A DNA stretch of 64,000 nt from Planctomycetota bacterium (GTDB lineage Bacteria > Planctomycetota > UBA8742 > UBA2392). Where the stretch lies: assembly GCA_022071975.1 (NCBI GenBank), contig JAJVIO010000035.1, positions 16,433 to 80,432 of the forward strand, written 5' to 3'. The stretch's first letter is position 1. Every line of letters starts with the position of its first letter. A program made the position numbers and the translations under genes. The notes under the pieces were generated by a model that was not told the DNA's origin, did not search any database, and saw nothing but the letters and a program-made list of their open reading frames with translations. This document shows, in pieces, positions 44,712 to 62,527 of the stretch.

Positions 44712-45584
44712 TTACAGGCCGCGGGCCCACTCCGGGCGCAGGGGGATTTCGCCGCTGAGGGCCGCGTCCAGCACCTGCACGATGCGTTCGCGGTCGCGGG
44801 GCAGGCGTCCGGCCAGCGGCAGGTAGTTGCTGGCGTGGTTGCTGCGGAAGATGGCGTCTGTCGGGCGGGCGAGGTCCACAAACGTGCGCAGCTCGCGCAG
44901 CAGGCCCATGATGTCGGGCAGCTCGAAGCGCCCAGTCTCCTCCAGCTTCGCGATCGGCGTGCCGGGCACCACGGTCAGCGTCAGGCACGACACAAAACGC
45001 GGGTCCATGGCGCTCGCCAGCCTGGCCGATGCCTCCGTGTGCTCGGCACTGCGCTCAGTACCGCCGGCGCCCAGCAGGAAAATGGCCGACAGCTTGATGT
45101 CGGCCGCGTGGGCCTTCTGCGCAGCCGTTACGTGCTCGGCGAAGTTCGCGCCCTTGGCGATGCGCTTGAGGGTGACGTCGTCACCGGATTCGGGCCCTAT
45201 ATATAGAAGAGACAGGCCCCACTCGCGCAGTTGCCTGAGCTCGGCCTCGCTCTTTTCGTTCAGGTTGCGGGCAGTGGCATAGGCGCTGACGCGGCGCAGG
45301 CGCGGGAACTGTTCGCGGCAGGCGCGCAAAATCGGCTCCCATTCATCCAGCGTCATCACCAGCGCGTCGCCGTCGGCCACGAACACCTTGTCGATCCGCT
45401 CGCCGTATGCGCTTGCCGCCATGGCGATGTCTTCCAGCGTCTCGGCCTGCGCGCGCACGCGGAACTTCTTGTCGCGGTACATGTCGCAGTAGGTGCAATG
45501 GTTCCAGCTGCAGCCGACGGTGGCCTGCAGGATGTAGCTGTTTGCCTCGCTGGGCGGGCGGTAGATGCTGCCTTCGTAGCGCAT
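44712..45584 (-). CDS. Radical SAM protein with CX4CX2C cluster motif
   Basis: 290 aa from ATG 45584. The iron-sulfur cysteines are C25, C30 and C33 in GCSWNHCTYC, a CX4CX2C spacing rather than the usual CX3CX2C. That spacing is found in an uncharacterised radical SAM group with TVGC-[ST]-x3-C-T-[FY]-C-x-MY. SAM-binding GGDAL-type and SAYAT motifs follow. The chemistry is unknown. It is divergently transcribed from the ClpB-like trio with starts within about 60 bp, so the two may share a regulatory region. Confidence 0.85.
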   Translation of the reverse strand: MRYEGSIYRPPSEANSYILQATVGCSWNHCTYCDMYRDKKFRVRAQAETLEDIAMAASAYGERIDKVFVADGDALVMTLDEWEPILRACREQFPRLRRVSAYATARNLNEKSEAELRQLREWGLSLLYIGPESGDDVTLKRIAKGANFAEHVTAAQKAHAADIKLSAIFLLGAGGTERSAEHTEASARLASAMDPRFVSCLTLTVVPGTPIAKLEETGRFELPDIMGLLRELRTFVDLARPTDAIFRSNHASNYLPLAGRLPRDRERIVQVLDAALSGEIPLRPEWARGL

Positions 45585-45599
45585 GGCCGCATCATCCAC

Positions 45600-45605
45600 T
45601 ATGAT
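45600..45605 (+). promoter_or_regulatory. Possible -10 element (TATGAT)
   Basis: TATGAT lies in the intergenic gap between the radical SAM and ClpB-like genes. If used, transcription would start near 45612 and the coding start would be GTG 45640. No good -35 is visible. Confidence 0.3.
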
Positions 45606-48600
45606 GCGCGCCCCATGCAACCCTGAGACGTTACGCGCCGTGACCGAACGCCGCCTGCAACTTCACACGCTGATCCAGGCGTTCGAGAACGACAGCGTGC
45701 TCGCAGAGGCGCTGCATTACCCCGAAATCTCGCGGTTTGAGGCCACGCCGGCCAAGGCGCGCCGCGCCGTGCTGACCAACGCGCGCGGCCTGGCCGAGCG
45801 CAGCCCGCTGCTGGAGCTGTTCCGGCGCTGCTCGCCCTCAACGCCCGTGGCCCGCGAGTTCCGCGTTACCCTGCCGCCCCCGCGCGAGTTGCCGCTCTGG
45901 AGTGAGCCCCTTGAGCTCAGCTTCCACGCGGCCGTCTTCGAGTTCCCCGGCGAGGCCTGGGCCGCGTATTTCCCGGCGCTGCAGGTCGAAGTGATTGCGC
46001 CCGACGAGGCCGAGCTGAACCGCCGCGTGCCCGACGAGCTCAGGCTCGCGCTGCACCGCACACGCGCCGACGCCACGCTCTGGAACCTGGCGGCTCTGCA
46101 GCGCAGCCAGTCGCTCAGCATCGAAAGCGCAAAATTCACGGCCGACATCCCCACGCCCAAGGACCTGGCGATGCGCGAGGCGCGCGCGCCCAAGGAGCCC
46201 TCGGTGCTGGAGAACGTGGCCGTGGACCTCACCCAGCAGAAGCTGCAACAGGCCCACGAGTACGAGGCACACGCGCGCCGCCTGGCTGAAGCGCTGTCTG
46301 AGCCCGGCCCGCAGAGCGTGCTGCTGGTGGGCCCCAGCGGTGTGGGCAAGACGGCCGTGTTCCATGAGCTGGTGCGCATGCGCCAGCATTACAGGTTCGG
46401 GCGCACGCCCTTCTGGGCGACCAGCGGCTCAAGGCTGGTGGCGGGCATGTCGGGCTTTGGCATGTGGCAGGAGCGCTGCGATAAGTTGCGCAAGGAAGCT
46501 TCTCGCACACGCGCCATCCTGCACCTCGGCAACCTGGTCGAGCTCATGGAAGTGGGCAAGGGCGTGATGATCCAGCAGGGTATCGCCGGCTTCCTGCGCC
46601 CCTTCATCGCGCGCGGCGAGCTGCTGTGCGTGGTGGAGTGCACGCCCGAGCAACTGCCCATCATTGAACGCCAGGACCCCCACCTGCTGGGTGTCTTCCA
46701 CAAGCTGGAAATCACCGAGCCTGAGCCCGACACCGCGGCCGCCATCCTGCTTTCCGTGGCGCACGAAATCTCGCAGGCCAAGGGGCGCGAGCTGATCGAG
46801 CTGCACACGCTCGAGACCATCGACCGCCTGCACCGCCGCTACGCCACCTACTCGGCCTACCCCGGCCGGCCGTTGCGTTTTCTGCGCAACCTGCTGGCCG
46901 ACCGCGAGCAGCCCGCCACGGACGCCGACGTCTACGCCGCCTTTTCGCGCGAGACCGGCCTGCCGCGCCTGATGCTGGACAGCGCCTTGCCCATGCAACC
47001 GGGGCCCGTGCAGCAGTTCTTCACTGAGCGCATCATCGGCCAGCCGGGCGCCATCGGGCTGGTCACCGACCTGCTCGCCACGGTCAAGGCCGGCCTGTCG
47101 CGCCCGCGCAAGCCCCTGGCCAGCCTGCTGTTCGTCGGCCCCACCGGCGTGGGCAAAACCGAGACCAGCAAGGCGCTGGCCGAGTTTCTGTTCAATGACC
47201 GGCGCCGCATCACCCGCTTCGACATGAGCGAGTACGCCAGCCCGGCCGCCGTGCAGCGGCTGATCGGCGGCGCATTCGGCGAAGAAGGCCTGCTGACCGC
47301 GCGCGTGCGCGAACAGCCGTTCGCCGTGCTGCTGTTCGACGAGTTCGAGAAGGCCCACCCGCTGTTCTTCGACCTGCTGCTGCAGGTGCTGGGCGAGGCG
47401 CGCCTTACGGACGCCGCCGGGCGCCTGGCCGACTTCAGCAACGCCGTGGTGATCATGACCAGCAACCTCGGCGCAGAGGGCTTCATGCAGGGCGCCATCG
47501 GCTTCGGCAAAAACGCGGCCGACGCCGCCGGCCACTTCACCCGCGCTCTGCGCGATTTCGTGAGGCCGGAGTTGCTGAACCGCATCGACCGCGTCGTGCC
47601 GTTCCTGCCGCTGGATGAAACCTCGGTGCTGCGGATCGTGCGGCGCGAAGTCGAGCTGCTGAAGCAGCGCCCCGGCCTGCGCGACACCGGCACGCGCCTC
47701 GAGGTCGGCGACGACGCCCTGCAACTGGTGGCGCGCAAGGCCTATCAGCCCGCGCTGGGGGCGCGGCCGCTGAAGCGCGAGATCGAAAGCGGCCTGCTGG
47801 TGCCGCTGGCGGAGGCGCTCAACACCCAGCCCACCGAGTACGCGCTGAGCGCCGTGGTGGCGGCCGGCGACAAGAAGCTGGAGCTGGCAACCGCGCCGCT
47901 GACCGGCGCGGATTCACGCCCGCAGGCGCGCTCGTTCGCGGAGGCCTGGCTGGCGGGCCTGCGCCAGGACGTCACGCAGCTGCGCCGCAAGCTGCAAACC
48001 GCGCTGGTTTCGCCGGCCGCGCTGCGCCTGCGCAACGAGATCTACCGGCTCAACCGCACGCTCGAAATGGAGAAGCGCCGCCGCCGAAAGAAGCCGGACC
48101 AGCCCATACCCGCCAAGGTGTTCGAGACCGAGCAGCGGCTGGCCAAGGTGCGCGAGGTGCTGCACGCTTTTGAGGCGTGCATGGAAGCCGCCGTCGCCGC
48201 CGAGGATCGGCTGGCGCTGGCGTCATTGGGCGGCGCGCGCACGCAGGAACAGCCCGCCCGCGCGGAAGTCGAGAGCTGCAAGGTCGCGTGGTCGAGCGCC
48301 CTGCGGGCGCTGATGCGCCTCGACGGCGGGGGCGCGAACCTGGCCAGCCTGTGGGTCTACTCGCACCACAACGAGCTGATGTTCGAGCTGGCATCGGCAT
48401 ACCACGCCTGGGCGGTCGCGAGCGGCATGCAGGTCGAAGTGCTGTGGGCCACCCGCGAGTTCAGCCAAGCCGAGCAGCGCGAGCTGCAACGGCGCGCTGA
48501 CTTTGACGGCCGCGCGTCTGAAGCTCCGCGCCACGCGGTGACGCTGCAGGCCCACGGCACTGAAGAGCAGCGCCCGCTGCTGTTCCCGCCCGCGGACATC

Positions 48601-48969
48601 GAGAACTTCCTTGCCAATCCTCGTGAGGAGACCGGCGCGATCGTGCTGGAGCTGCGGGGCGACGATGCCGCGCTGATGCTGCGGCTTGAGGCCGGGACGC
48701 ACCGCTTCCGGTTCGACAGCGAATCGGAGCCGATCAACGTGGAAGTCGGCTGCCACGCGCAATCCGCCTGGCGCGCGAAGTTCCCGCTGCCGCGCGGCAT
48801 GGCGAGCGCCGAGCCCGTACGCCGCCGCTACGACATGGCGCAGCACCAGGCCAAGGACGAGCGCCTGGAAGAAATCCTCGCCTGGACCGGCAGCCGCATC
48901 GACGCCGTGCTGGCGCGCTGCATCAAGGCGGGCTTCGAGCTCGAGCTGGAAAAGCAGGTGGGCCTGTGA
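45601..48969 (+). CDS. Double-AAA+ ClpB-like ATPase with C-terminal release-factor-like extension (trio, gene 1)
   Basis: About 1122 aa from ATG 45601; ATG 45583, ATG 45604 and GTG 45640 are alternative starts. An N-terminal ~190-residue domain precedes NBD1: Walker A GPSGVGKT at 244-251, but the Walker B region reads LHLGNLVEL with no D-E pair. NBD2 is canonical: GPTGVGKT at 513-520, LLFDEFEK near 577, sensor MTSNLG, arginine finger RPELLNRID and sensor 2 GARPLKREIE. The C-terminal 300 residues contain a coiled region (LRNEIYRLNRTLEMEKRR) and a domain ending LRLEAGTHRFRF that resembles the PCRF domain of peptide chain release factors. It lacks the ClpB N-terminal Clp repeats and any ClpP-docking loop. 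It is the first of three genes with 4-nt overlaps. Confidence 0.88.
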   Translation: MMRAPCNPETLRAVTERRLQLHTLIQAFENDSVLAEALHYPEISRFEATPAKARRAVLTNARGLAERSPLLELFRRCSPSTPVAREFRVTLPPPRELPLWSEPLELSFHAAVFEFPGEAWAAYFPALQVEVIAPDEAELNRRVPDELRLALHRTRADATLWNLAALQRSQSLSIESAKFTADIPTPKDLAMREARAPKEPSVLENVAVDLTQQKLQQAHEYEAHARRLAEALSEPGPQSVLLVGPSGVGKTAVFHELVRMRQHYRFGRTPFWATSGSRLVAGMSGFGMWQERCDKLRKEASRTRAILHLGNLVELMEVGKGVMIQQGIAGFLRPFIARGELLCVVECTPEQLPIIERQDPHLLGVFHKLEITEPEPDTAAAILLSVAHEISQAKGRELIELHTLETIDRLHRRYATYSAYPGRPLRFLRNLLADREQPATDADVYAAFSRETGLPRLMLDSALPMQPGPVQQFFTERIIGQPGAIGLVTDLLATVKAGLSRPRKPLASLLFVGPTGVGKTETSKALAEFLFNDRRRITRFDMSEYASPAAVQRLIGGAFGEEGLLTARVREQPFAVLLFDEFEKAHPLFFDLLLQVLGEARLTDAAGRLADFSNAVVIMTSNLGAEGFMQGAIGFGKNAADAAGHFTRALRDFVRPELLNRIDRVVPFLPLDETSVLRIVRREVELLKQRPGLRDTGTRLEVGDDALQLVARKAYQPALGARPLKREIESGLLVPLAEALNTQPTEYALSAVVAAGDKKLELATAPLTGADSRPQARSFAEAWLAGLRQDVTQLRRKLQTALVSPAALRLRNEIYRLNRTLEMEKRRRRKKPDQPIPAKVFETEQRLAKVREVLHAFEACMEAAVAAEDRLALASLGGARTQEQPARAEVESCKVAWSSALRALMRLDGGGANLASLWVYSHHNELMFELASAYHAWAVASGMQVEVLWATREFSQAEQRELQRRADFDGRASEAPRHAVTLQAHGTEEQRPLLFPPADIENFLANPREETGAIVLELRGDDAALMLRLEAGTHRFRFDSESEPINVEVGCHAQSAWRAKFPLPRGMASAEPVRRRYDMAQHQAKDERLEEILAWTGSRIDAVLARCIKAGFELELEKQVGL

Positions 48970-51900
48970 AGCTGACCATCCCGCTCTACCAGGAGAAGTT
49001 CAGCCACGAAGGCCGCGACGTCTTCTTCGTGCGCCCGCTGTTCTACTGCGACGTGGAAGCCCTGCGCCCCGAGCTGCGCCGCGCCACCGACTCCGTGCGC
49101 ACCGCCCTGCGCAAGCTGCTGCAGAAGCTGTCTGAAGAAGCGCGCCACGACGCGCTGGCCTGGCACGCCCAGTGCCCCGAGGTCAGCGAGCAGCACGTCA
49201 GCCTGCGCCTGCAGCTCAAGCGCCGCAGCGTGGAGACGCGCTTCCTGTTCGCCGTTTACCAGCAGGGTGAGCAGCGCATAGCCTTCACGCCGCGCCTGCC
49301 GGCGCTGGCCTTCACGCTGGCCCGCGGCGAAAGCCTGGAAACCCGCGCCGAGCAGGTGCTCACCGCCCACTACCGCAAGCTCGAGCGCGAGCACGGCGAG
49401 GTGGACCCCGCCCTCGACGCCATGCGCGGCACGGCCTGGATCTCGCACCTCGACATCGATCTCGCCATCGAGGCCACCCACGTGCCGCCGCGCAAGAAAG
49501 ACCGCGCCGAGATCGGCAGCTTCGAGCAGATGCGCGGCGCCGATGAACTGCAGCGCGTGGGCCGCCAGCTCAACGCCCTCTACCCCGACGACCTCGAGCG
49601 CGCCGTGCGCCGCGAAGAGCCCGTGGCCGAGCTGCTGCGCCTGCTCGAGCACCCAGACAAGCGCCCGCTGCTGCTGCTCGGCCGTTCCGGCGCAGGCAAG
49701 ACCGCCCTGGTGCATGAGGCCGTGCGCCGCCGCATCGAGGCCAGGGGCGAAGACGGCCAGGGCGCGCGCGGCCAGGTGTGGCTGCTTTCGCCGCAGCGGC
49801 TGATCTCGGGCATGAGCTTCGTGGGCCAGTGGGAGAACCGCGTGCACGCGATTCTCGCCGAGTGCAAGCGCCGCGGCCACGTGCTGTATTTTGACGATTT
49901 CATCGGCCTGTTCCGGGCCGGCATTTCCGCCAGCAGCAAGGTCAGCGCCGCGCAGGTGCTGAAGCCGCACATCGAAAAGCACGAAGTGCGCCTGCTGGTG
50001 GAAATGACGCCCGACCAGTTCCGCGTGCTGAACGAGCTGGATCGCGGCTTCGCCGACCTGTTCCACGTGCTGCGCCTCGACGAGCCCGCCGAAGAAGAAA
50101 ACCTGCGCATCCTGCTGCACGTGCAGCGCGAGCTGGAGGCCCGCCACCCGTGCCGCTTCAGCCACGACGTGCTGCCCACGGCGCTGGACCTGATGCAGCG
50201 CTACCAGCGCGAGGTCGCCATGCCGGGCAAGGTCGCCGGCTTCCTGCAGCAGCTGGCGGTCAAGCACCGCAACGGGGCGATCCACCGCTTCCAGGCGCTC
50301 AGTGAGTTCGAAGCCCGCAGCGGCCTGCGCGTGATGTTCCTGGATGCCAACTCGCGCCTGTCGCGCGACATGGTCACCTACGGCCTGCGCGAGCGCGTAA
50401 TCGGCCAGGACGCCGCTGTGGAAGCCCTGGCCGACGTGGTGGCCGTGGCCAAGGCGCGGCTGAACGATCCCGAGCGGCCGTTGGGTTCGCTGCTGTTTCT
50501 CGGCCCTACGGGCGTGGGCAAAACCGAAACCGCCAAGGCGCTGGCCCACTGGCTGTACGGCGACGCCTCGCGCCTGCTGCGTTTCGACATGAACGAGTTC
50601 GTGGACGGCGCCTCGGTCGCGCGCCTGGTCGGCACGCTCAGCGAGCCCGAGGGCCTGCTCACCAGCGCCGTGCGCCGCCAGCCCTTCGCCACGATCTTGC
50701 TCGACGAAATCGAGAAGGCCCACCCGGCCGCCTTTGACGTGCTGCTGCAGGTGCTGGGCGAAGGCCGCCTCACCGACGCGCTGGGTCGCACGGCCGACTT
50801 CACCAACTGCGTGATCATCATGACCAGCAACCTCGGCGTGCGTGAAGCCCAGGGCGGCCTCGGGCTCGGCGGCCACGAGCAGCGCGGCGACGAGGCCTAC
50901 GTGCAGGCGGCGCGGCGCTTCTTCCGGCCGGAGTTCTTCAACCGCATCGACCGCATCGTGCCCTTCCAGCGCCTGCAGCGCCCGCAGATCGAGCGCATCG
51001 CGCAGCTGCTGCTGCGCGAGGTGTTCACGCGCGAGGGGCTTGCGCGGCGGCGCTGCGTGCTGCAGGTGGACGCGCTGGCCATGGAGCGCGTGGTGGACAA
51101 GGGCTTCCACCCGGCCCTGGGCGCGCGCGCCATCAAGCGCGAGATCGAGCGGCAGCTCACGCGCCCGCTGTCGGCGCGGCTCAGCGAGTTGAACCCGGAG
51201 GTGCCCACCATCGTGCACCTGATGGCGCGCGGTGACGATATCGACGTCGGGCTGATCCCGATGCAACCCGCGCAACCGGCGCAAACCGTCAACCTGGACG
51301 ACCCGGACGCCGTGGTGGCTCGCATCGACGACGTGCTGAACCGCGCCGAAGACCAGCTGCACGCCCTGCAGCCGCAGGGCGCGATCCCGGTCGAGGCCGT
51401 CACGCCCGAGCTGCGCCGCTACTTCGCCCTGCGCGAGCAGCTGCAGTACCTGGACGACGCCGTCGAGCGCTTCCTTGATTGGCGCGAGCGCGAGGCTCTG
51501 CGCCCGGCCCCCGTTGAGGCCAGCGCCAGCGCGCTCAGCGAAGAGCGTCCGCGCCGCTCGCAGCTTTCCGAGGCCCTGCCGGTCGGGCCCACGGCGTGGC
51601 TGGAGCTGCGCACACCCAACGAGCTGGCGGCCTGGCTGGCCCAGCGCGCCGAAGAGCAGGGCGAAAGCGAACTTCACGGCCGTCTGCGCCGCCTGCTGGC
51701 GTCGGCCTGCCTGCTCAACCTGATGGTCGAGCGCCCGCCCGTTGAGGACGAACGCGCCCTGCTGATCGTGCGCACTGTGGACGGCAGCATGGCCAGCATC
51801 CCCGAGATGCTGGCGGAGACCTTCGGCGCCCTGATGCGCCACCGCTTCGACCTCGGCGCCAGCGAGCTGAAGCTGAAGCAGCCGGGCGCCGCGGGCTGCG

Positions 51901-52262
51901 TGGTCTCGGGCTACCTGGCCCATGCGCTGTGCGGCGCGCTCGCCGGCCTGCACCTGTGGTGCTGGGACGGCGGCCTGCTGCCCCTGCAGGTGATCGCACT
52001 GCCGCTACAGCAAGGCGCCGACCCGGCCGAAGTCGCGGCCGGCGTTGACGCGCAGCGCCGCGCCTGGGCCGAGGCCGTGGCGAAGGGCGAAGCGGGCGCC
52101 GACGACGACCCGCTGCCCCACGGTCCGGTAGTGCAGCAGCACTACACCAACGGCAGCACGCTCGACCTGCGCGCCGGCCAGGTCTCCCGCGAGCGTCCGT
52201 CGCTGAGCCTGCTGGCGAGTTGGCTGCTGGGCGGCTTCAAGCTGCCGGAGGTGCAGCCATGA
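48966..52262 (+). CDS. Double-AAA+ ClpB-like ATPase (trio, gene 2)
   Basis: 1098 aa from GTG 48966, which overlaps the previous stop by 4 nt. The N-terminal domain (1-215) is followed by NBD1 with Walker A GRSGAGKT at 239-246 and a Walker B reading LYFDDF, so the catalytic glutamate is changed to aspartate. NBD2 is intact: GPTGVGKT at 513-520, LLDEIEK near 578, MTSNLG, RPEFFNRID and GARAIKREIE. The C-terminal ~330 residues form a separate domain (LRRYFALREQLQYLDDAVERF then LLIVRTVDGSMASIPEMLAETFGALMRH) that is placed like the C-terminal domain of gene 1. Its role may be to remodel or unfold a target together with genes 1 and 3. Confidence 0.88.
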   Translation: MKLTIPLYQEKFSHEGRDVFFVRPLFYCDVEALRPELRRATDSVRTALRKLLQKLSEEARHDALAWHAQCPEVSEQHVSLRLQLKRRSVETRFLFAVYQQGEQRIAFTPRLPALAFTLARGESLETRAEQVLTAHYRKLEREHGEVDPALDAMRGTAWISHLDIDLAIEATHVPPRKKDRAEIGSFEQMRGADELQRVGRQLNALYPDDLERAVRREEPVAELLRLLEHPDKRPLLLLGRSGAGKTALVHEAVRRRIEARGEDGQGARGQVWLLSPQRLISGMSFVGQWENRVHAILAECKRRGHVLYFDDFIGLFRAGISASSKVSAAQVLKPHIEKHEVRLLVEMTPDQFRVLNELDRGFADLFHVLRLDEPAEEENLRILLHVQRELEARHPCRFSHDVLPTALDLMQRYQREVAMPGKVAGFLQQLAVKHRNGAIHRFQALSEFEARSGLRVMFLDANSRLSRDMVTYGLRERVIGQDAAVEALADVVAVAKARLNDPERPLGSLLFLGPTGVGKTETAKALAHWLYGDASRLLRFDMNEFVDGASVARLVGTLSEPEGLLTSAVRRQPFATILLDEIEKAHPAAFDVLLQVLGEGRLTDALGRTADFTNCVIIMTSNLGVREAQGGLGLGGHEQRGDEAYVQAARRFFRPEFFNRIDRIVPFQRLQRPQIERIAQLLLREVFTREGLARRRCVLQVDALAMERVVDKGFHPALGARAIKREIERQLTRPLSARLSELNPEVPTIVHLMARGDDIDVGLIPMQPAQPAQTVNLDDPDAVVARIDDVLNRAEDQLHALQPQGAIPVEAVTPELRRYFALREQLQYLDDAVERFLDWREREALRPAPVEASASALSEERPRRSQLSEALPVGPTAWLELRTPNELAAWLAQRAEEQGESELHGRLRRLLASACLLNLMVERPPVEDERALLIVRTVDGSMASIPEMLAETFGALMRHRFDLGASELKLKQPGAAGCVVSGYLAHALCGALAGLHLWCWDGGLLPLQVIALPLQQGADPAEVAAGVDAQRRAWAEAVAKGEAGADDDPLPHGPVVQQHYTNGSTLDLRAGQVSRERPSLSLLASWLLGGFKLPEVQP

Positions 52263-54493
52263 GCGTTACCCGCCTGCCGGTATTAGTCTGGCGCGACCAC
52301 GAAGGCCACTTCACGGCCGCGCTCGTGGACCAGCCCGAGTATGCCGCCTTCGGCACTTCGGCCCAGGACTGCCTGCAGCAGTTGCGCCATCACCTGACCT
52401 GGCTGCAGCGCAACGAGCCGTGGTATTTCCCGGAATCCAGCGGCGACGAGTGCAAACTGATTCGCGTGGCCGTGGACGTGCGCCCCGAGTACGTGGTCGG
52501 CCGCCAGCGCCACCCCAGCGAGCCGATCCGCGTGACCGTGCCCTGCGTGCACAGCGAGCTGACGGGCGGCCTGCACGCCTGCGCGATCCCGCCGTTGCAG
52601 TTGTGGTTCTCGTTCCATGAGGCCGACAAGCTGCGCGAGCTTGCCGCCCACTACGTGCGCGAGGCGCTGCAGGGCAAGTCGCCGGCGCAGGTGGCGCGGC
52701 TGCTGAACGCGGCCGAGTACGAGCTCGCGGATGTGCTGGTCACCGCGCCTGAAGAGCGCAAGACGCGGGCCGAGCGGCGCTACGAGTCGCTGGAAACCGT
52801 GGCCGAGGCGCTGGGCGAGCGCGCCCTGCGCCGCCAGTTCAGTCGCGCCTGGGAGCGCGAGCGCGAAATCCACGAGCTCTCGCGCCGGGTGAAAAACGAC
52901 CGCGCCAACGTGCTGCTGGTGGGCCCGCCCGGCGTGGGCAAGACCTCGGTGCTGGCCAGCGCCGCCCGCGAGCTCGAGCGCCAGCTTGAGGGCGACGTCG
53001 AGCGCCGACGCTTCTGGCTGACGAACGGCTCAAGGCTGATCGCCGGCACGCCCTACCTGGGCCAGTGGGAAGAGCGCCTGGAGGCCGTGATCGCCGAGCT
53101 GCAGGGCTTCCAGGGCGTGCTGTGCATCGAGAACCTGCTTGAGCTGGTGCGCCTCGGCGGCCACGACGCCAGCGACAGCGTGGGCGCATTCCTGATTCCG
53201 TACATGAACCACCGCGAGCTGCAGGTGGTGGCCGAGGCCACGCCCGAAGAGCTGGACGCCTGCCGCCGCCTGCTGCCCGGCCTGGCGGACGCCTTCCAGG
53301 TGCTGCGCGTGGAGCCCTTTGACGCGTCAAGTGCCCTGCGCGTGCTGGACCGCATCGCGCAGGCGGGTGCTCGCAACCTGCGCGTGGAGACCGGCAACGA
53401 CGTGGTGCACACGGTGTTCCGCCTGTTCCGGCGTTTCCGGCCCTACGACGCCTTCCCCGGCAAGGCGGCCGCGTTCACTTCCGGCCTGATCCAGCAGGCC
53501 GCGAGCGCCGAGCAGCGCAAGCTGGAGCAGCAGGCCGTGACCGACCGCTTCGTGGATGAAACCGGCCTGCCCGAACTGCTGCTGCGCGACGACCTGCCGC
53601 TCGCCGAGCCCGACGTGCTGGCCGCCCTGTCCGCCCGGGTGATCGGCCAGGAAGCCGCCTGCCGCGCGGCCGCCGGTGTGATCACCACCTTCAAGGCCGG
53701 GCTGAACGATCCCGGCCGGCCCCTGGGCGTGCTGCTGTTCAGCGGCCCCACGGGCGTCGGCAAGACCGAGCTGGCCCGCGCCATGGCCGACTACCTGTTC
53801 GGCCACGGCGAAACACACGAGCGCCTGGTGCGCCTGGATATGAGCGAGTACACCGGCCACGGCGCGAGCGAGCGCCTGGTGTCGGACGCAAGCGGCGGCC
53901 CCAGCGACTTCATCAAGCGCGTGCGCAGCCAGCCCTTCTGCGTGGTGCTGCTGGATGAAATCGAGAAAGCCTCGCCGGACGTGTTCGACATGCTGCTTGC
54001 GGTGTTCGATGAAGGCCGGCTCACGGACCGCTTCGGCCGCGTCACCAGCTTCCAGTCCAGCGTGCTGATCATGACCAGCAACCTCGGGGCCGGGCGCGAA
54101 GGCGGCCTGGGCTTCGGCAAGGCGCGCGGCCCGGACTACGACGCCGAAGTGATGCGCTTTTTCCGGCCGGAGTTCTACAACCGGCTGGACGCGGTGGTGG
54201 CGTTCGCGCCACTGCACGAGCAGACCATCCGCGCGATCGCCGAGAAGGAGCTGCGTGAGCTGGCCGCGCGCGAAGGCATGGCAGGGCTGAGCCTGAGTTG
54301 GGATGAAGCAGTGGCCGCACTGGTGGCATCGGCCGGCTTCGACCAGCGCTACGGCGCGCGCCCCCTCCAGCGCGCGCTCGAAGAGCTGGTGGTAACGCCC
54401 ATCGCCCGCGAGCTGGCATCCAACCCGGATCGCCGCCAGGCCAGGCTGCATCTGTCAGTCCAGCAAGGCCGAGTAGTCCTGCAGTGGGCGTAG
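52259..54493 (+). CDS. Double-AAA+ ClpB-like ATPase (trio, gene 3)
   Basis: 744 aa from ATG 52259, overlapping gene 2 by 4 nt. The N-terminal part (FTAALVDQPEYAAFGTSAQDCLQQLRHHL) recalls HicB-like beta domains and is longer than a simple cap. NBD1 has Walker A GPPGVGKT at 222-229 and Walker B reading LCIENLLEL instead of a D-E pair. NBD2 is canonical: GPTGVGKT near 497, LLDEIEK near 566, MTSNLG, RPEFYNRLD and YGARPLQRALEE. Unlike genes 1 and 2 it ends soon after the D2 small domain, with no C-terminal extension. All three are likely subunits of one assembly. Confidence 0.88.
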   Translation: MSVTRLPVLVWRDHEGHFTAALVDQPEYAAFGTSAQDCLQQLRHHLTWLQRNEPWYFPESSGDECKLIRVAVDVRPEYVVGRQRHPSEPIRVTVPCVHSELTGGLHACAIPPLQLWFSFHEADKLRELAAHYVREALQGKSPAQVARLLNAAEYELADVLVTAPEERKTRAERRYESLETVAEALGERALRRQFSRAWEREREIHELSRRVKNDRANVLLVGPPGVGKTSVLASAARELERQLEGDVERRRFWLTNGSRLIAGTPYLGQWEERLEAVIAELQGFQGVLCIENLLELVRLGGHDASDSVGAFLIPYMNHRELQVVAEATPEELDACRRLLPGLADAFQVLRVEPFDASSALRVLDRIAQAGARNLRVETGNDVVHTVFRLFRRFRPYDAFPGKAAAFTSGLIQQAASAEQRKLEQQAVTDRFVDETGLPELLLRDDLPLAEPDVLAALSARVIGQEAACRAAAGVITTFKAGLNDPGRPLGVLLFSGPTGVGKTELARAMADYLFGHGETHERLVRLDMSEYTGHGASERLVSDASGGPSDFIKRVRSQPFCVVLLDEIEKASPDVFDMLLAVFDEGRLTDRFGRVTSFQSSVLIMTSNLGAGREGGLGFGKARGPDYDAEVMRFFRPEFYNRLDAVVAFAPLHEQTIRAIAEKELRELAAREGMAGLSLSWDEAVAALVASAGFDQRYGARPLQRALEELVVTPIARELASNPDRRQARLHLSVQQGRVVLQWA

Positions 54494-54501
54494 TACGGAG
54501 C

Positions 54502-54547
54502 GCGGACGTCACGTCCGCAAATCAAAGCCCAGCCCGCAAGGGCTGGG
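54502..54547 (+). terminator. Paired hairpins after the ClpB-like operon
   Basis: GCGGACG-TCA-CGTCCGC (54502-54518) and CCCAGCCC-GCAA-GGGCTGGG (54528-54547) begin 9 bp after the third stop codon. No strong U-tract is present. Confidence 0.55.
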
Positions 54548-54551
54548 GTGT

Positions 54552-54650
54552 GCAGTTCAGCCGGCGCGGCCGGCGTCTCCCTCGGTCAGCCCCCGGCGCA
54601 GCGACCCGCCCGCCAAAGCCTTGGCGACGGCGGGAGCGGAGCCTGGGGAC
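54552..54650. repeat. Left inverted repeat of transposase element
   Basis: See the right copy at 55221-55317; about 90% matching after inversion. It includes the GCCGGC-GCG-GCCGGC palindrome. Confidence 0.8.
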
Positions 54651-54729
54651 ACGGACGGATCCAATTCCCGAGCCGCGCAGCGGCGGCTCTTGTGAGGGCG
54701 CACAACTATCAGCCCGGTATCATGCCGCC

Positions 54730-55179
54730 ATGAGCCATGCCTACACGCGCCAGCTGCTGCACATTGTGTTCAGCACCAAGGAACGCAGGTCGTTCCTGCA
54801 CGTGGAGCTCCGGCCTCGCATGCTGGGCTACCTGCGCACCTTGGCCAACGACTTGAACACCACCGCGCTGGCGCTTAACGGCGTGGACGATCACGTTCAC
54901 ATTCTGGTGGATATGCCGGCCGCGCTTAGCACGGCGGAGTTTCTGACCAAGCTGAAGGCGAACTCCTCGCGTTGGTTTCGCAGCCTGTTCCCGAAAGTCG
55001 ATTTCCGCTGGCAACGCGGTTACGGCGCGTTCAGCGTCAGCCCATCGAAACTCGAGGAAGTGCGGGGCTACATCGACCGCCAGGAAGCGCATCACCAGAA
55101 ACATTCATTCGAGGGCGAGATACGAAAGCTGGCGAAGAACCACGGCCTGGAGTTTGACGAGCGCTTCTTCCTGGGATGA
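54730..55179 (+). CDS. Y1 (IS200/REP-associated) tyrosine transposase
   Basis: 149 aa from ATG 54730; longer frames run into the repeat. The HUH motif H55-V-H57 (GVDDHVHIL) and the nucleophile tyrosine Y114 (VRGYIDRQEAHH) are intact, and WQRGYGAFSVSPS is typical of IS200-like TnpA. It should cut and join single-stranded DNA at a hairpin. No tnpB or second ORF is present. A 9-bp hairpin (GAGAGCCGC / GCGGCTCTC) begins one base before the TGA stop codon. The frame is open, so the element may be active. Confidence 0.9.
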   Translation: MSHAYTRQLLHIVFSTKERRSFLHVELRPRMLGYLRTLANDLNTTALALNGVDDHVHILVDMPAALSTAEFLTKLKANSSRWFRSLFPKVDFRWQRGYGAFSVSPSKLEEVRGYIDRQEAHHQKHSFEGEIRKLAKNHGLEFDERFFLG

Positions 55180-57022: not shown

Positions 57023-57049
57023 CGCAGGGGAACGGGCGGGAGAATGGCC

Positions 57050-58189
57050 ATGAGCGCAACCGGCAAGCCGTTTCGCCTGCACTGGCCCCTCGGGGTGATC
57101 TTGGGACTTATTGCCGCGCTGCTTGCGATGCCTCTGCTCAAGAGCACGCCGCGCGCGGAGACCACGGTCGGCCCGGTGCTCAGTGACTGCGACGGCGAGA
57201 TCCGGGAGCTGGTGATCCAGTACACCAGCGACTCGGCCGAGATTGTCGCCAATCCCTTCCGCGATTTCCTTACCCAGTTGCCGAAAGCGGTCACGGTGCA
57301 CGTGGTGTGCCGTGACCGCGCGGCATTTGACGACCTGAAAAGCCGCGTGGGCGAAACCGCCTGCACGCTCAACCCGATCTTCGTGGACCACCCCATCACT
57401 TCATGGTCGCGCGACCGCTGGATCTGCCTGCGGCCGGCGGGCAGCGCGGTCGCCTACACCGTGCTGTCGCCCCAGGGCGAAATGGGCGCCGACGCCTGGC
57501 CCGAACGCAAGGGCGACGAGCAGATCGGCGACGACCTGGCGGCCGCCCTGGCGCCTCACGTCACGGCCGTGCGCAGCCCTCTGTGGTTTGATGGCGGCGA
57601 CTTCGTGTGCGACGAGGAGACGGCGTTCGTCACGCCCAACGTGCGCAAGCGCAACATGCAGAACACCGTCAAGTCCGAAGAGGAGCTGCTGGCGCGGCTG
57701 CGGGAAATCACAGGGCGAAAGGTCGTGCTGCTGAAGAACGCGCCGGACCACCACGCGGGCATGTACATGATGGCCGTGGGCAACCGCACCGTGCTGGTCG
57801 GCGACCCGCGCCTTACCCGCGAGTTGCTGGGCGATGAGGCCGAGAAGCTTCCCCTGCCCCCCGGCCTCGACAACAGCGACGAGTGCCAGGCTCGCTTCGA
57901 CGCCGTGGCCGAACAATGCCGCGAGGCCGGCTACAACGTGGTGCGCATCCCCATCGCGCCGGGCAAAGACGGCCGCATGTTCATCACCTACCTGAACGTG
58001 ATCCTGGACCAGCGCGACGGCAAGCGCGTGGTGTTCATGCCCTGGATCGATCATGCCCAGCGCTTGAACGAGGCCGCTGAGCAGGTATGGGAAAAGGCCG
58101 GCTACGAAGTGAAACGCGTGAATTGCACGGACTGCTACAAGTTCTTCGGCAGCCTGCGCTGCCTGGTAAACGTGCTGAAACGCGGCTAA
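57050..58189 (+). CDS. Membrane-anchored arginine-deiminase-superfamily (agmatine deiminase-like) protein
   Basis: 379 aa from ATG 57050 (GGGAG 7 nt upstream); ATG 57044 is too close to it. A membrane helix lies at about 11-30, so the enzyme part is outside the cytoplasm or membrane-tethered. Superfamily signatures are D122 in SWSRDRW, FDGGDFVCDE near 180-189, H235 in DHHAGMYMM and the nucleophile C371 in SLRCLVNV, close to the C-terminus. Family members hydrolyse guanidino groups on agmatine, arginine or peptidyl-arginine. The order and spacing fit the agmatine/peptidyl-arginine deiminase branch. A membrane anchor is unusual, and the substrate is unknown. Confidence 0.8.
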   Translation: MSATGKPFRLHWPLGVILGLIAALLAMPLLKSTPRAETTVGPVLSDCDGEIRELVIQYTSDSAEIVANPFRDFLTQLPKAVTVHVVCRDRAAFDDLKSRVGETACTLNPIFVDHPITSWSRDRWICLRPAGSAVAYTVLSPQGEMGADAWPERKGDEQIGDDLAAALAPHVTAVRSPLWFDGGDFVCDEETAFVTPNVRKRNMQNTVKSEEELLARLREITGRKVVLLKNAPDHHAGMYMMAVGNRTVLVGDPRLTRELLGDEAEKLPLPPGLDNSDECQARFDAVAEQCREAGYNVVRIPIAPGKDGRMFITYLNVILDQRDGKRVVFMPWIDHAQRLNEAAEQVWEKAGYEVKRVNCTDCYKFFGSLRCLVNVLKRG

Positions 58190-58282: not shown

Positions 58283-58400
58283 GTGCACCTAACCCGTTTG
58301 ACCGCCGCGACTTTCGTTCATCGTGATCTTTTCTGCTTTTCCGGAACCTCGCCACCGCACCTGCGTCCAAAACGAACTGGTTCTGTTCAAGGGGAACGTT

Positions 58401-61400
58401 ATGGGCTCTTCCTTTAATCTACGGCGCTGGCGCGGGCCTTTGCTGGGCGGCGCGTTCGCCCTGGCCGTGATGGCCGGCCTTTCGCCATTTAACGGCCAGG
58501 ACAAAACGCCTGACCTGGGCGGCAACGACCGCTACCTCGCCCACATCTCAACCGACAAGCCGATCTACCGGCCGGGCGAAACCCTCTACCTGCGCTCGGT
58601 GCTGCTGCACGCCTTCAAGCACACGCCATTGAAAGGCGCCCAGTACGCGCAAGCCAAGGTCACCAATTCGCGCGGCTCGGTGGTGATGGAGTCCAACTTC
58701 CGCATCGATGACTCCGCGGGCGGCGCAAGCTGGGAAATTCCCAAAAACATTGCCGGCGGCGAATACACCGTGAAGGTCACCTTCCCCAACAGCGGCTACG
58801 CGCCCGCCGAGCGCAAGTTCGACATCCGCGCCTACCGCGCCCCGCGCATCAAGAGCCAGCTCGAGTTCGTGCGTAAGGCCTACGGCCCCGGCGACACCGT
58901 AAGCGCCGTGCTGAACGCCACCCGCGCCGAGGGCGGCGCGCCCAGCGGCGCCAAGGTCACGGCCGTGGCGCGCATCGACGGCGCCGAGGTGTGGCGCGGC
59001 GAAACCAGGGTTGACGCCAAGGGCAACTGCTCGGTCTCGTTTGACCTGCCGGAGAAGATCGAAACCGGCGTGGGCTCGCTCTCGCTGGTGATTGAAGATG
59101 GCGGTGTGGTCGAGACGGCATCCAAGACCCTGCCGATCCTGCTGCAGCAGATTCCCATCGCCTTCAGCCCCGAGGGCGGCGACCTGGTCGCCGGCCTGGA
59201 GTGCGGCCTGTACTTCGAGGCGCTGACGCCCTGGGGCGACCCGGCGGACGTCAGCGGCGAAATCCGCGACGCCAAGGGCAACCGCGTGGCCGACTTCGCA
59301 ACCACGCACGAAGGGCGCGGCAGCCTGAAGTTCACGCCCGCCGCGGACACCGAGTACTTCGCCCACATCACCAGCCCCAAGGGCATCACCGTGGCGGCGC
59401 CGCTGCCCAAAGTATTGAAGGAAGGCGCCAGCCTGCGCGCCGCGCAGCCGGTGTACGGCGCGGGCGAGGCGCTGGGCTTCAACGTCGCCAGCAGCAAGGG
59501 CGGCGCCTGCAAGCTGGTGCTGTCCCAGCGCGAGACCGAAGTGGCCGCGCAGAAACTTGACCTGAAGGCCGGGGAAAGCGCGCTGGTCAGCCTGACGCCG
59601 GCCACCGACATCGACGGCGTGCTGCGCGCCACCCTGTTTGACGCCAACGACAAGCCACTGGCCGAGCGCCTGGTGTTCCGCAGGCCGCAGCGCGAGCTGA
59701 ACATAGAGATCGTCGCCAGCCCCGAGCACGCGGTGCCCGGCGACAAGGTGGAGCTCACGATCCGCACGACCACGTCTAAGGGCGAGCCGGTCGCGGCCAC
59801 CGTGGGCCTGACCGTCACCGACGACGCGGTGCTGCAGATGATCGAGACCCGCAAGCAGGCCCCGCGCCTGCCGGTGATGGCGCTGCTCGAGAACGAGGTC
59901 GATCACCTCGAGGACGCACACGTTTACCTCAGCGCCGACCCCAAGGCCGCGGCGGGCATCGACCTGCTGCTCGGCACCCAGGGCTGGCGCCGCTTCAGCT
60001 ACCTGAACGCCGAGGAGTTCATGCGCAAGCACGGCGACAAGGCCAAGCGCGCCCTGGCCTTCCGCAACCCGCCCCCGCCCGCGATGCCGCGCGGCGGTGG
60101 TTGCTGGGGAGGCGGCGGCGTCGCAGGCAGGCCGCGTCCGGCCGCAGGTCCGCAACCGGAAGACGCCCGCGATGAAGTCAACGAAGACGGCGCCGTCGAG
60201 GGCCAGGGTGAAGCCCCGCCGGAGCCGAACAACGCGGCGCCCGCCGAGGAGCCGGCCGAGGAAAAGGCTGCCAGCAAGGTCCACCGCGACGCGGAAGAAG
60301 CTGAGATGGCCGACGACAAGATCGCGGGCGAACGCCTGCGCCGCAAGGCCCAGGCCATGGTCGCAATTCGCGAGTACGCCCACCAGTTGCGCGCAGGCCG
60401 TCAGGCCGGCGACCGCAAGGATTTCACCGAGACGCTGTACTGGAACGCCGGCGTGAAAACCAACGAGCGCGGCGAGGCCAAGGTCAGCTTCTTCCTCAGT
60501 GACTCGGTCACCAGCTTCCGCGTGATGGCCGACGGCTTCAACGACGCCGGCGCGCTCGGCCAGGCCGACGCGCTGGTCACCTCGCGCAAGCCCTTCTACC
60601 TCGAGCCCAAGCTGCCGCTTGAAGTCACCGCGGGCGACGTGGTGATGCTGCCCGTCTCCCTGGTGAACTCCACCAGCGGCGGCATGAAGGTTGTGCTGGA
60701 AGCCAGCGGCGGCGAGGCCATCTCCCTGCCGGAAAACTTCAACGGCGAGCTGGAGCTCAAGTCCGACTCGCGCGGCCGTCTGCTGCTGCCGGTCCGTGTC
60801 GGCCGCGCCAACGGCATGCTGACCCTGACGCTGGACGGCAAGGCCGGCGCCTTCAGCGACCGCGTGACGCGCGAGTTCGCGGTCAAGCCGCTCGGCTTCC
60901 CCATGAGCTTCACGGCCGGCGGCATGATGGACAAGCCGCAGGCGATCACCGTGACGATCCCCGAGGACGTGCACCGCAGCACGATCACCACCTCGGCCAA
61001 GGTGTACCCCACGCCGGCGGCCAACCTGATGGCGGCCATGGAGCGGCTGATCACCGAGCCCTATGGCTGATTCGAGCAGTGTAGCTCGGTGAGCTACCCG
61101 CTTGTGATGGCCCAGCAGTACATGACCACCCACACCGGCGTTGACCCCAAGCTGGTGGTGCGCGCCAACGAGATGCTGGAGAAGAGCTACAAGATCCTCA
61201 CCAGCTTCGAGTGCGACAAGGGCGGCTTCGAGTGGTTCGGCCAGGGCGCCGGCCACGAGAGCCTCACGGCCTACGGCGTGTTGCAGTTCCAGGACATGGC
61301 CAAGGTCTACCCGGTAGATGAAGCGATGCTGAAGCGCACCAAGGAATGGCTGCTGAGCCGCAAGAACGACAAGGGCGGCTTCGACGTCAACCCGCGCTTC

Positions 61401-62477
61401 CTGCACGACTGGGGCTGCCCGCAGTACATCGCGGACGCCTACATCGTGTGGTCGCTGACCGAGGGCGGCGACCGCAACCTCGACCAGCAGATCGACGTGC
61501 TGGTGCGCGACGCGGCCGAACGGGATGACCCGTACTACAACGGCCTGGTCGCTCTCAGCCTGTTCAACGTCGATCGCCCCGAGGACGCCCGCAAGCTGCT
61601 GGCCCGCGTGGCCAAGCACCTGAAGGAAGACGGCAGCGTGGTTGACAGCAAGACCACCGTGGTGAACTCGAGCGGCGACGCGCTGCTGATCGAGACCACG
61701 GCCGTGGCGGCGCTGGCCTTCCTGCGCGACCGCGAATACGCGGGCCACGTCGAGCAGGCCATGCAGTGGCTGACCACGCGCTGCAAGGACGGCCGTTTCG
61801 GCTCGACCCAGTCCACGGTGCTGGCGCTGAAGGCGATCGTCGCCTATGACGCCGCGCGCGCCGTGCCCAAGGCCGACGGCACCCTGCTGCTGATCGTGGA
61901 CGGCAGCGAGTGGGCCAAAGTGCCCTTCACCAAGGAGACCACCGGCACCATCGAGCTGCCGAACTTCGCCGAGGCGCTGTCGCCCGGCAAGCACCGCATC
62001 GAGCTGCGCATGAAAGATGGCTCGCCGATGCCGTACTCGTTCGACGTCAGCTTCTACTCGACCAAGCCGGTGAACGACCCGGAGTGCGAACTGGACCTGA
62101 CTGTCACGCTGGCCAGCAGCGAAATCAGCGAGGGTGAGTCCACCGAGGTCAACGTCACCCTGCTCAACACCGACAAGCTGGAAGGCCAGAACATGGCCAT
62201 GGCCATCGTCGGCCTGCCGGGCGGGCTCGAGCCCCGCCACGAGAAACTGAAGGAGCTGGTCAAGGCCGGTACCATCAACGCCTACGAGGTCCGCGGCCGT
62301 GACGTGATCTTCTACTTCACGACCATGCAGCCGGGCCAGGAAGCGAAGTTCAGCTTCGACGTGATCGCGGCGATCCCCGGCGAGTACAAGGGCCAGGCCA
62401 GCCGCGCCTACTGCTACTACGCGGACGAATACCGCAAGTGGGTGGACGGCCTGAGCGTCAAGATCAACGCCCGCTAA
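58401..62477 (+). CDS. Alpha-2-macroglobulin with in-frame TGA at the thioester cysteine (candidate selenoprotein)
   Basis: 1358 residues if TGA 61068-61070 is read through; otherwise 889. An N-terminal signal or anchor (about 8-32) precedes MG2 (TDKPIYRPGETLYLRS, 51-66) and further macroglobulin domains. A Pro/Gly/Glu-rich bait-like stretch is near 556-630, and the family signature ETLYWNAGVKTNERGEAKVSF near 677. The thioester motif should read PYG-C-FEQ; here codon 890 is TGA, giving PYG-U-FEQ if selenocysteine. The thioester domain (890-1190) and C-terminal receptor-like domain continue in the same frame with no other defect. A2M traps proteases through an internal Cys-Gln thioester; a selenoester would be more reactive. 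A nonsense mutation or sequencing error remains possible. Confidence 0.8.
61073..61104 (+). promoter_or_regulatory. Candidate bacterial SECIS hairpin
   Basis: Upper stem GTAGCTC / GAGCTAC (61081-61087 with 61091-61097) is closed by the loop GGT (61088-61090). The lower stem CGAGC / GCTTG (61073-61077 with 61100-61104, one G-U pair) is separated by an AGT/CC internal loop. The loop starts 17 nt after the TGA and has G in its first two positions, which fits the general bacterial SECIS model (16-37 nt spacing, small G-containing loop). Confidence 0.6.
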
Positions 62478-62492
62478 GGGCGGCAATCGCAA

Positions 62493-62527
62493 GCGGCCCG
62501 GGGAGCGTTCCCCGGGCCGCTTCGTTT
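62493..62527. terminator. Strong terminator
   Basis: A 12-bp stem GCGGCCCGGGGA / TCCCCGGGCCGC with a GCGT loop, then TTCGTTTT. It lies between the convergent A2M and leuB genes. Confidence 0.85.

Follow-up and report, generated by a model that had tools for sequence, protein, structure and literature searches.

A single cysteine defines the thioester proteins, a group that extends from complement C3 to bacterial protease traps, and the locus described here raises the question of what a bacterium makes of an alpha-2-macroglobulin (A2M) gene that carries TGA at exactly this position. The gene lies in a stretch of 64,000 nucleotides from a Planctomycetota bacterium (contig JAJVIO010000035.1), which we refer to as a whole as the window. 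A sequence-only reading of this DNA had proposed that the TGA encodes selenocysteine (Sec).

The A2M gene and its in-frame TGA

The A2M frame runs from ATG 58401 to TAA 62475–62477, and its sole in-frame TGA is residue 890, in the context PYG-TGA-FEQCSS. Read-through translation confirmed that the gene is open for 889 codons, reaches TGA at 61068–61070, and continues in the same frame for 468 more, as had been proposed. The translated protein matched Pfam PF01835, PF07703, PF00207, PF07678, PF07677, and PF17973 (MG2, bait-region, A2M, thioester-containing or TED, receptor-binding, and bMG10 domains), the domain set of A2M/thioester proteins with bait region and TED included. No NCBIfam model matched this read-through protein, and the best matches among solved structures were CD109 and A2M. 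The PF07678 match crossed the TGA and the CD109 cysteine aligned with it, upholding the earlier placement of the TGA at the reactive cysteine of an intact TED. The Cys codon of G-C-x-E-Q is absent, with TGA in its place and E and Q retained, and on this sequence evidence we filed the protein as a putative Sec variant of the A2M family and not as a Cys member. TGA is otherwise an ordinary stop in this DNA, as the sequence-only reading had stated, ending three of the six neighbouring ORFs examined. The features of the gene are as follows.

58389..58394, + strand: AAGGGG, Shine-Dalgarno-like motif judged by eye, 6 nt 5' of the ATG
58401..62477, + strand: A2M coding frame with one TGA read through; 1358 residues with predicted Sec890, six Pfam A2M-type domains in the read-through translation
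61032..61847, + strand: TED, residues 878–1149, with the TGA inside (PF07678, 88.1 bits, E = 7.3e-25)
61068..61070, + strand: predicted Sec codon TGA at the thioester cysteine position, aligned with the PYGCGEQ cysteine of CD109
61077..61079, + strand: Gln893 codon, predicted from sequence to be the acyl partner of Sec890; EQ in 34/34 TGA domains found by profile
61080..61082, + strand: Cys894, present in 3/33 Sec rows of the alignment, window clade only
61404..61406, + strand: His1002, aligned with a CD109 histidine; His in 19/33 Sec and 13/39 Cys rows, a mixed and gappy column given no weight
62491..62522, + strand: terminator-like hairpin of 14 pairs a short way 3' of the TAA, from a hairpin scan in which the class was not enriched (5 sites vs 4.2 expected in shuffles)

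Upstream, three consecutive large ORFs encode ClpB-type AAA_2 ATPase domains (45583–48969, 48966–52262, and 52220–54493) and are followed by an IS200-type transposase gene (54484–55179). The ORF that precedes the A2M gene (57044–58189) matched the peptidyl-arginine deiminase model PAD_porph at 30.7 bits (cut-off 25). Among the six upstream ORFs scanned with Pfam, there was neither a pbp1C-like neighbour nor an obvious partner.

The same TGA recurs in Planctomycetota

We searched 392 Planctomycetota genomes with the Pfam TED model and took counts from the 150 matches listed. A single TGA lay inside 34 of these 150 listed matches, and TAA or TAG inside none. In all 34, the TGA sits at the thioester cysteine, each as P-x-G-TGA-x-E-Q, which bears out the earlier argument that a random stop would be improbable at exactly this codon. 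The 34 genes are spread over 25 genomes, the window's included, with three genes each in G030, G055, and G097 and two each in G136, G158, and G172. For the codon count, 33 of the 34 loci were located; L119 failed the length filter and was checked separately, and L010 and the G002 locus, which share the compared context, were counted once. Alignment of relatives showed that other genera carry TGA, and in the 88 genes fetched the thioester-site codon was TGA (33), TGC (40), or TGT (15) and nothing else, in a count that would miss domains without EQ and that excludes 18 off-site EQ strings.

Read-through searches, centred on Planctomycetota as the window's phylum, gave a concordant picture. Across 60 genomes, including the window's, ten A2M matches were listed with an internal stop, and in each this was one TGA at the thioester cysteine. 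A contig scan found one locus (L010), in the Planctomycetota FR_29 metagenome assembly; its best segment is 93% identical, and it has the same TGA and hairpin DNA identical to that of the window. A sequencing error or private mutation, which the sequence-only reading had named as the main alternative, is unlikely given that this assembly and other genera carry the same TGA.

Database proteins tell a similar story. The GC-x-EQ motif was present in 120 of 120 relatives in a first listing and in 148 of 202 further listed relatives; the remaining 54 stop exactly at the P-x-G before the site. That 54 proteins end at one residue is not chance, and some of these ends may be contig edges. The A2M entry of Candidatus Uabimicrobium amorphum ends at residue 1197, at the LPGG preceding the TGA, and an entry from Uabimicrobium sp. 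HlEnr_7 has the same end point. The former matches L108, a TGA-type A2M on one single contig of 9,503,417 bases, with 100% identity across a compared stretch of 284 residues, and we have taken the two as one genome. This single-contig genome (G121) also encodes a Cys-type A2M (L129), forming with L108 a natural pair for comparison.

Reading frames and selection past the TGA

Most TGA genes have long frames ahead of the codon: 25 of the 33 examined are open for at least 900 codons up to the TGA, and four are short through a contig edge (L044, L045, L118, and L122). A further frame break upstream of the TGA occurs in 4/34 copies. The L010/G002 copy is frameshifted at about residue 150 (in L010, a lesion or an assembly error), L049 has an in-frame TAG, and in L050 and L117 the front of the gene lies in another frame than the back; gene damage, a split gene, or an assembly error may account for each of these four. 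For the window gene, dN/dS after the TGA was 0.17 in comparison with G002 and 0.26 with G015, and hence the second part is under purifying selection as protein. Before the TGA, the values were 0.24 for G002, whose front part was counted past its frameshift, and 0.34 for G015.

Selenocysteine machinery

All four components of Sec machinery that we sought in the window's genome were found: selA (482.9 bits), selB (334.2 bits), selD (391 bits), and tRNA-Sec (73.1 bits). The selD gene itself holds a TGA (LSHGAG-U-GCK). Among the 25 genomes with TGA-type A2Ms, selA was strong (E 1e-89 or better) in 23; the exceptions were G136 (59% complete), with an E-value of 2.5e-4 that we scored as a miss, and G221 (67% complete), with no match. 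For selD, 23 of the 25 were also over the cut-off (6/6 and 17/19), G144 and G248 being below it. The selA and selD gaps never coincide, and all 25 genomes have a strong match to one or the other. tRNA-Sec scored at least 67 bits in 11 of the 19 genomes searched, the weaker matches overlapping ordinary tRNAs. Because selA is common in the phylum, being over cut-off in 262/392 Planctomycetota genomes (Fisher p = 0.003 for the comparison with TGA genomes), the machinery is a matter of consistency and not of strong association.

Several features of the machinery genes stood out. Two tRNA-Sec matches in the window's genome (L002 and L003) have equal scores and lie at the end of G000:C28 and the start of C48, 0.8 kb after selA; they are probably one gene at an assembly break. 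Upstream of selD in the same genome, L070:1296–1399 contains a 66-base copy of the selD start, 89% identical, that repeats the LSHGAG-TGA; a perfect 13-bp hairpin comes after it. Seven other selD loci in which the motif could be located had no second copy, and the one here may have been left by an insertion or may serve as a leader that responds to selenium. Among the selD matches at G304:C225:19805–20722 and G288:C243:24809–25732, one has both TGA and TAG, and the other genome has a second selD match without TGA.

A predicted SECIS hairpin follows the TGA

Just past the TGA lies one further feature.

61073..61104, + strand: predicted SECIS hairpin with a 7-bp upper stem, GGU loop at 61088–61090, and 5-bp lower stem

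Refolding reproduced this hairpin as first described, with 17 nt between the TGA and the loop and a free energy of −15.3 kcal/mol. It satisfies the loop, stem, spacing, G, and energy rules drawn from a published account of bacterial SECIS elements (PMC13188914). Taken alone, the window hairpin is not exceptional: compared to dinucleotide shuffles, its z-score was −1.78 and 10 of 200 shuffles were equally stable, and compared to synonymous recodings of the same stretch, p was 0.21.

Across the family, the energy rule held in 33/33 TGA genes; the early-G loop rule held in 12/33 and separated TGA genes weakly from Cys genes (11/55), and many hairpins outside the window clade have loops that exceed the model's 9 nt. 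The best in-range hairpin had a median energy of −18.4 kcal/mol in the 33 TGA genes vs −7.8 in 55 Cys genes, and p-values for this comparison are a guide only, as the genes are related. Against synonymous recodings, p = 0.05 was reached by 14/33 TGA genes vs 7/55 Cys genes, and the other 19 TGA genes fell short. In a shared base-pair model of hairpins outside the window clade (30 TGA and 30 Cys genes), 61% vs 39% of pairs were standard, but the model was drawn from one TGA member, is biased to that member for this reason, and is not proof of covariation.

The sequence-only reading had asked whether the hairpin is conserved, and the window gene was therefore compared with that of genome G015, from another genus of the same family. 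The two A2Ms are 69% identical as proteins and their hairpins nearly identical. Over the whole gene, no stretch of identical codons is longer than the 14 that extend from P-Y-G through the TGA to just past the upper stem; 14-codon stretches average 72% nucleotide identity, and the TGA/hairpin stretch reaches 98%, a value attained by 5 of 1300. Hairpin DNA is retained between genera, in contrast to the divergence elsewhere in the gene. Compared to the close relative G002, the hairpin region is identical, as are many others (147/1181). The distance between TGA and loop is 17 nt in the window clade and 20–36 nt elsewhere, a difference that fits separate origins. The hairpin is predicted to act as a SECIS element in UGA decoding.

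Probable exchanges between Sec and Cys

The tree contained 72 rows (33 Sec and 31 Cys rows from the loci and 8 database Cys proteins) and was built by a quick method and left unrooted. The EQ motif was used to pick the rows for both the tree and the column counts, and Gln conservation in them is by construction; EQ in 34/34 TGA domains is independent of this choice, since those domains were found by the TED profile. Ten changes between Sec and Cys are needed on the tree, at least six of which are forced by well-supported branches. The window clade is nested in a Cys family, where the G015 Sec form and the Cys protein P0002 make a pair; L127 (G221) carries Sec amid Cys rows, with no other Sec row beside it; and the remaining 29 Sec rows form a second group together with 12 Cys rows. 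The tree suggests that Sec and Cys were likely switched several times, gain and loss not being separable on an unrooted tree.

A selenoester model for the protease trap

None of the sequence-based checks that were run and could have spoken against Sec at the TGA did so, and we regard Sec decoding of UGA at the A2M warhead as strongly supported by the comparisons above. Our preferred reading, to which we assign a probability of about 0.8, is that the gene encodes an A2M protease trap in which UGA is read as Sec with the help of the hairpin and in which a predicted internal selenoester joins Sec890 to Gln893. In this model, SelB and tRNA-Sec would decode UGA at residue 890, and Sec890 would attack the side chain of Gln893 and release ammonia, the reaction that Cys undergoes in A2M, C3, and CD109. 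We infer the Sec890–Gln893 selenoester, the same ring with selenium, because each of the 34 TGA domains that the profile found retains the Glu-Gln partner. Cleavage of the bait region by an attacking protease would then expose the selenoester, which would acylate the protease. In C3, a histidine forms an acyl-imidazole, and His1002 could do likewise here, with His present in only 19/33 Sec rows. For A2Ms in general, bait cleavage is described as uncovering a thioester that captures the protease (PMC4498604). A selenium trap would be expected to fire faster, because peptide chemistry shows selenoesters to be more reactive than thioesters; the price would be a bond that hydrolyses more readily and a dependence on selenium. 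Selenoesters are reported to react with amines more quickly than thio- or oxoesters, and activated ones to hydrolyse more (PMC7232547). We also think it probable that Planctomycetota, Candidatus Uabimicrobium included, repeatedly and reversibly made the A2M warhead a Sec-Gln selenoester used for covalent capture and not for redox chemistry.

Alternative explanations

Sec might be inserted without forming a selenoester and serve a redox or sensing role, for example through a selenenyl-sulfide with Cys894 in the window clade, where a Cys lies four residues downstream of Sec. Most catalogued selenoproteins are judged to be redox proteins (PMC13188914), which lends this explanation some appeal, but the Glu-Gln partner accompanies the TGA in every domain found by profile, Cys894 occurs in just 3/33 Sec rows, and the site aligns with the thioester Cys of CD109; we consider a redox role unlikely.

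The explanations that dispense with Sec were weighed as well and rated low, namely sequencing error, nonsense mutation, a changed code, and an internal start. Were the TGA a true stop or a lesion, whether by nonsense mutation, pseudogene formation, or sequencing error, only the 889-residue front part would be made. Gene callers do terminate the protein at the TGA, and 4/34 copies have another frame break. Such a stop is nevertheless very improbable, given that 34 genes from 25 genomes, one of these a single contig, share the codon, that the stop is TGA throughout, with TAA or TAG in 0/150 listed matches, that selection past the TGA is purifying, and that frames of at least 900 codons lead to it in 25/33 cases. 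Codes in which UGA means Cys or Trp occur in other bacteria, and selenium-free insertion of either residue, by such a code or by near-cognate read-through, would also restore the frame; yet TGA ends three of six neighbouring ORFs, there is one TGA per TED domain and always at the Cys site, and the genome encodes dedicated Sec machinery, its selD gene containing a TGA of its own, leaving this explanation little credence. Finally, an ORF of 462 codons begins at GTG 61089, from which the part after the TGA might start independently as a second protein. By eye, no Shine-Dalgarno-like site precedes this GTG, the bases before it form the hairpin stem, and the product would begin within the TED domain; two separate proteins are the least probable outcome of all. 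The selenoester trap remains our preferred reading.

Relationship to known systems

If the selenoester model is correct, selenium is used for covalent trapping and not for redox catalysis, and chemists gain a natural protein selenoester for study. Gene callers cut the putative Sec A2Ms at the TGA, as in the Uabimicrobium entry of 1197 residues, with the result that many are mis-annotated. Candidatus Uabimicrobium is a cell-engulfing member of the Planctomycetota. A direct test would be possible, since isolation has been reported for one carrier at least, Candidatus Uabimicrobium amorphum (PMC11032199).

Table 1 of PMC13188914, dated May 2026, covers 119 families and subfamilies and has no A2M, TED, or thioester family among them, and 'macroglobulin' occurs 0 times in PMC12013277, PMC9312934, PMC4807772, and PMC11481906. 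We met no Sec form of CD109-, A2M-, or C3-type thioester proteins in the open literature searched. On sequence grounds, and within the literature covered, we call the putative Sec A2M a new prokaryotic selenoprotein family; its selenoester chemistry, once demonstrated, would likewise be new.

Like the bacterial A2Ms of E. coli (ECAM/YfhM) and Salmonella, the window protein has MG2, bait-region, A2M, and TED domains, keeps a thioester-type motif followed by Glu-Gln, and matches YfhM and 4u48 in sequence, but those proteins have a Cys codon where the window has TGA. CD109, A2M, and complement C3 also have Cys at the warhead, and in CD109 it is the PYGCGEQ cysteine that lines up with the predicted Sec890. 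With the catalogued prokaryotic selenoproteins (PMC13188914), the window gene shares a UGA at the reactive Cys, a downstream hairpin, Sec machinery, many Cys homologues, and interchange of Sec and Cys. The catalogued selenoproteins are mostly judged to be redox proteins, whereas the window protein would be an acyl-transfer warhead.
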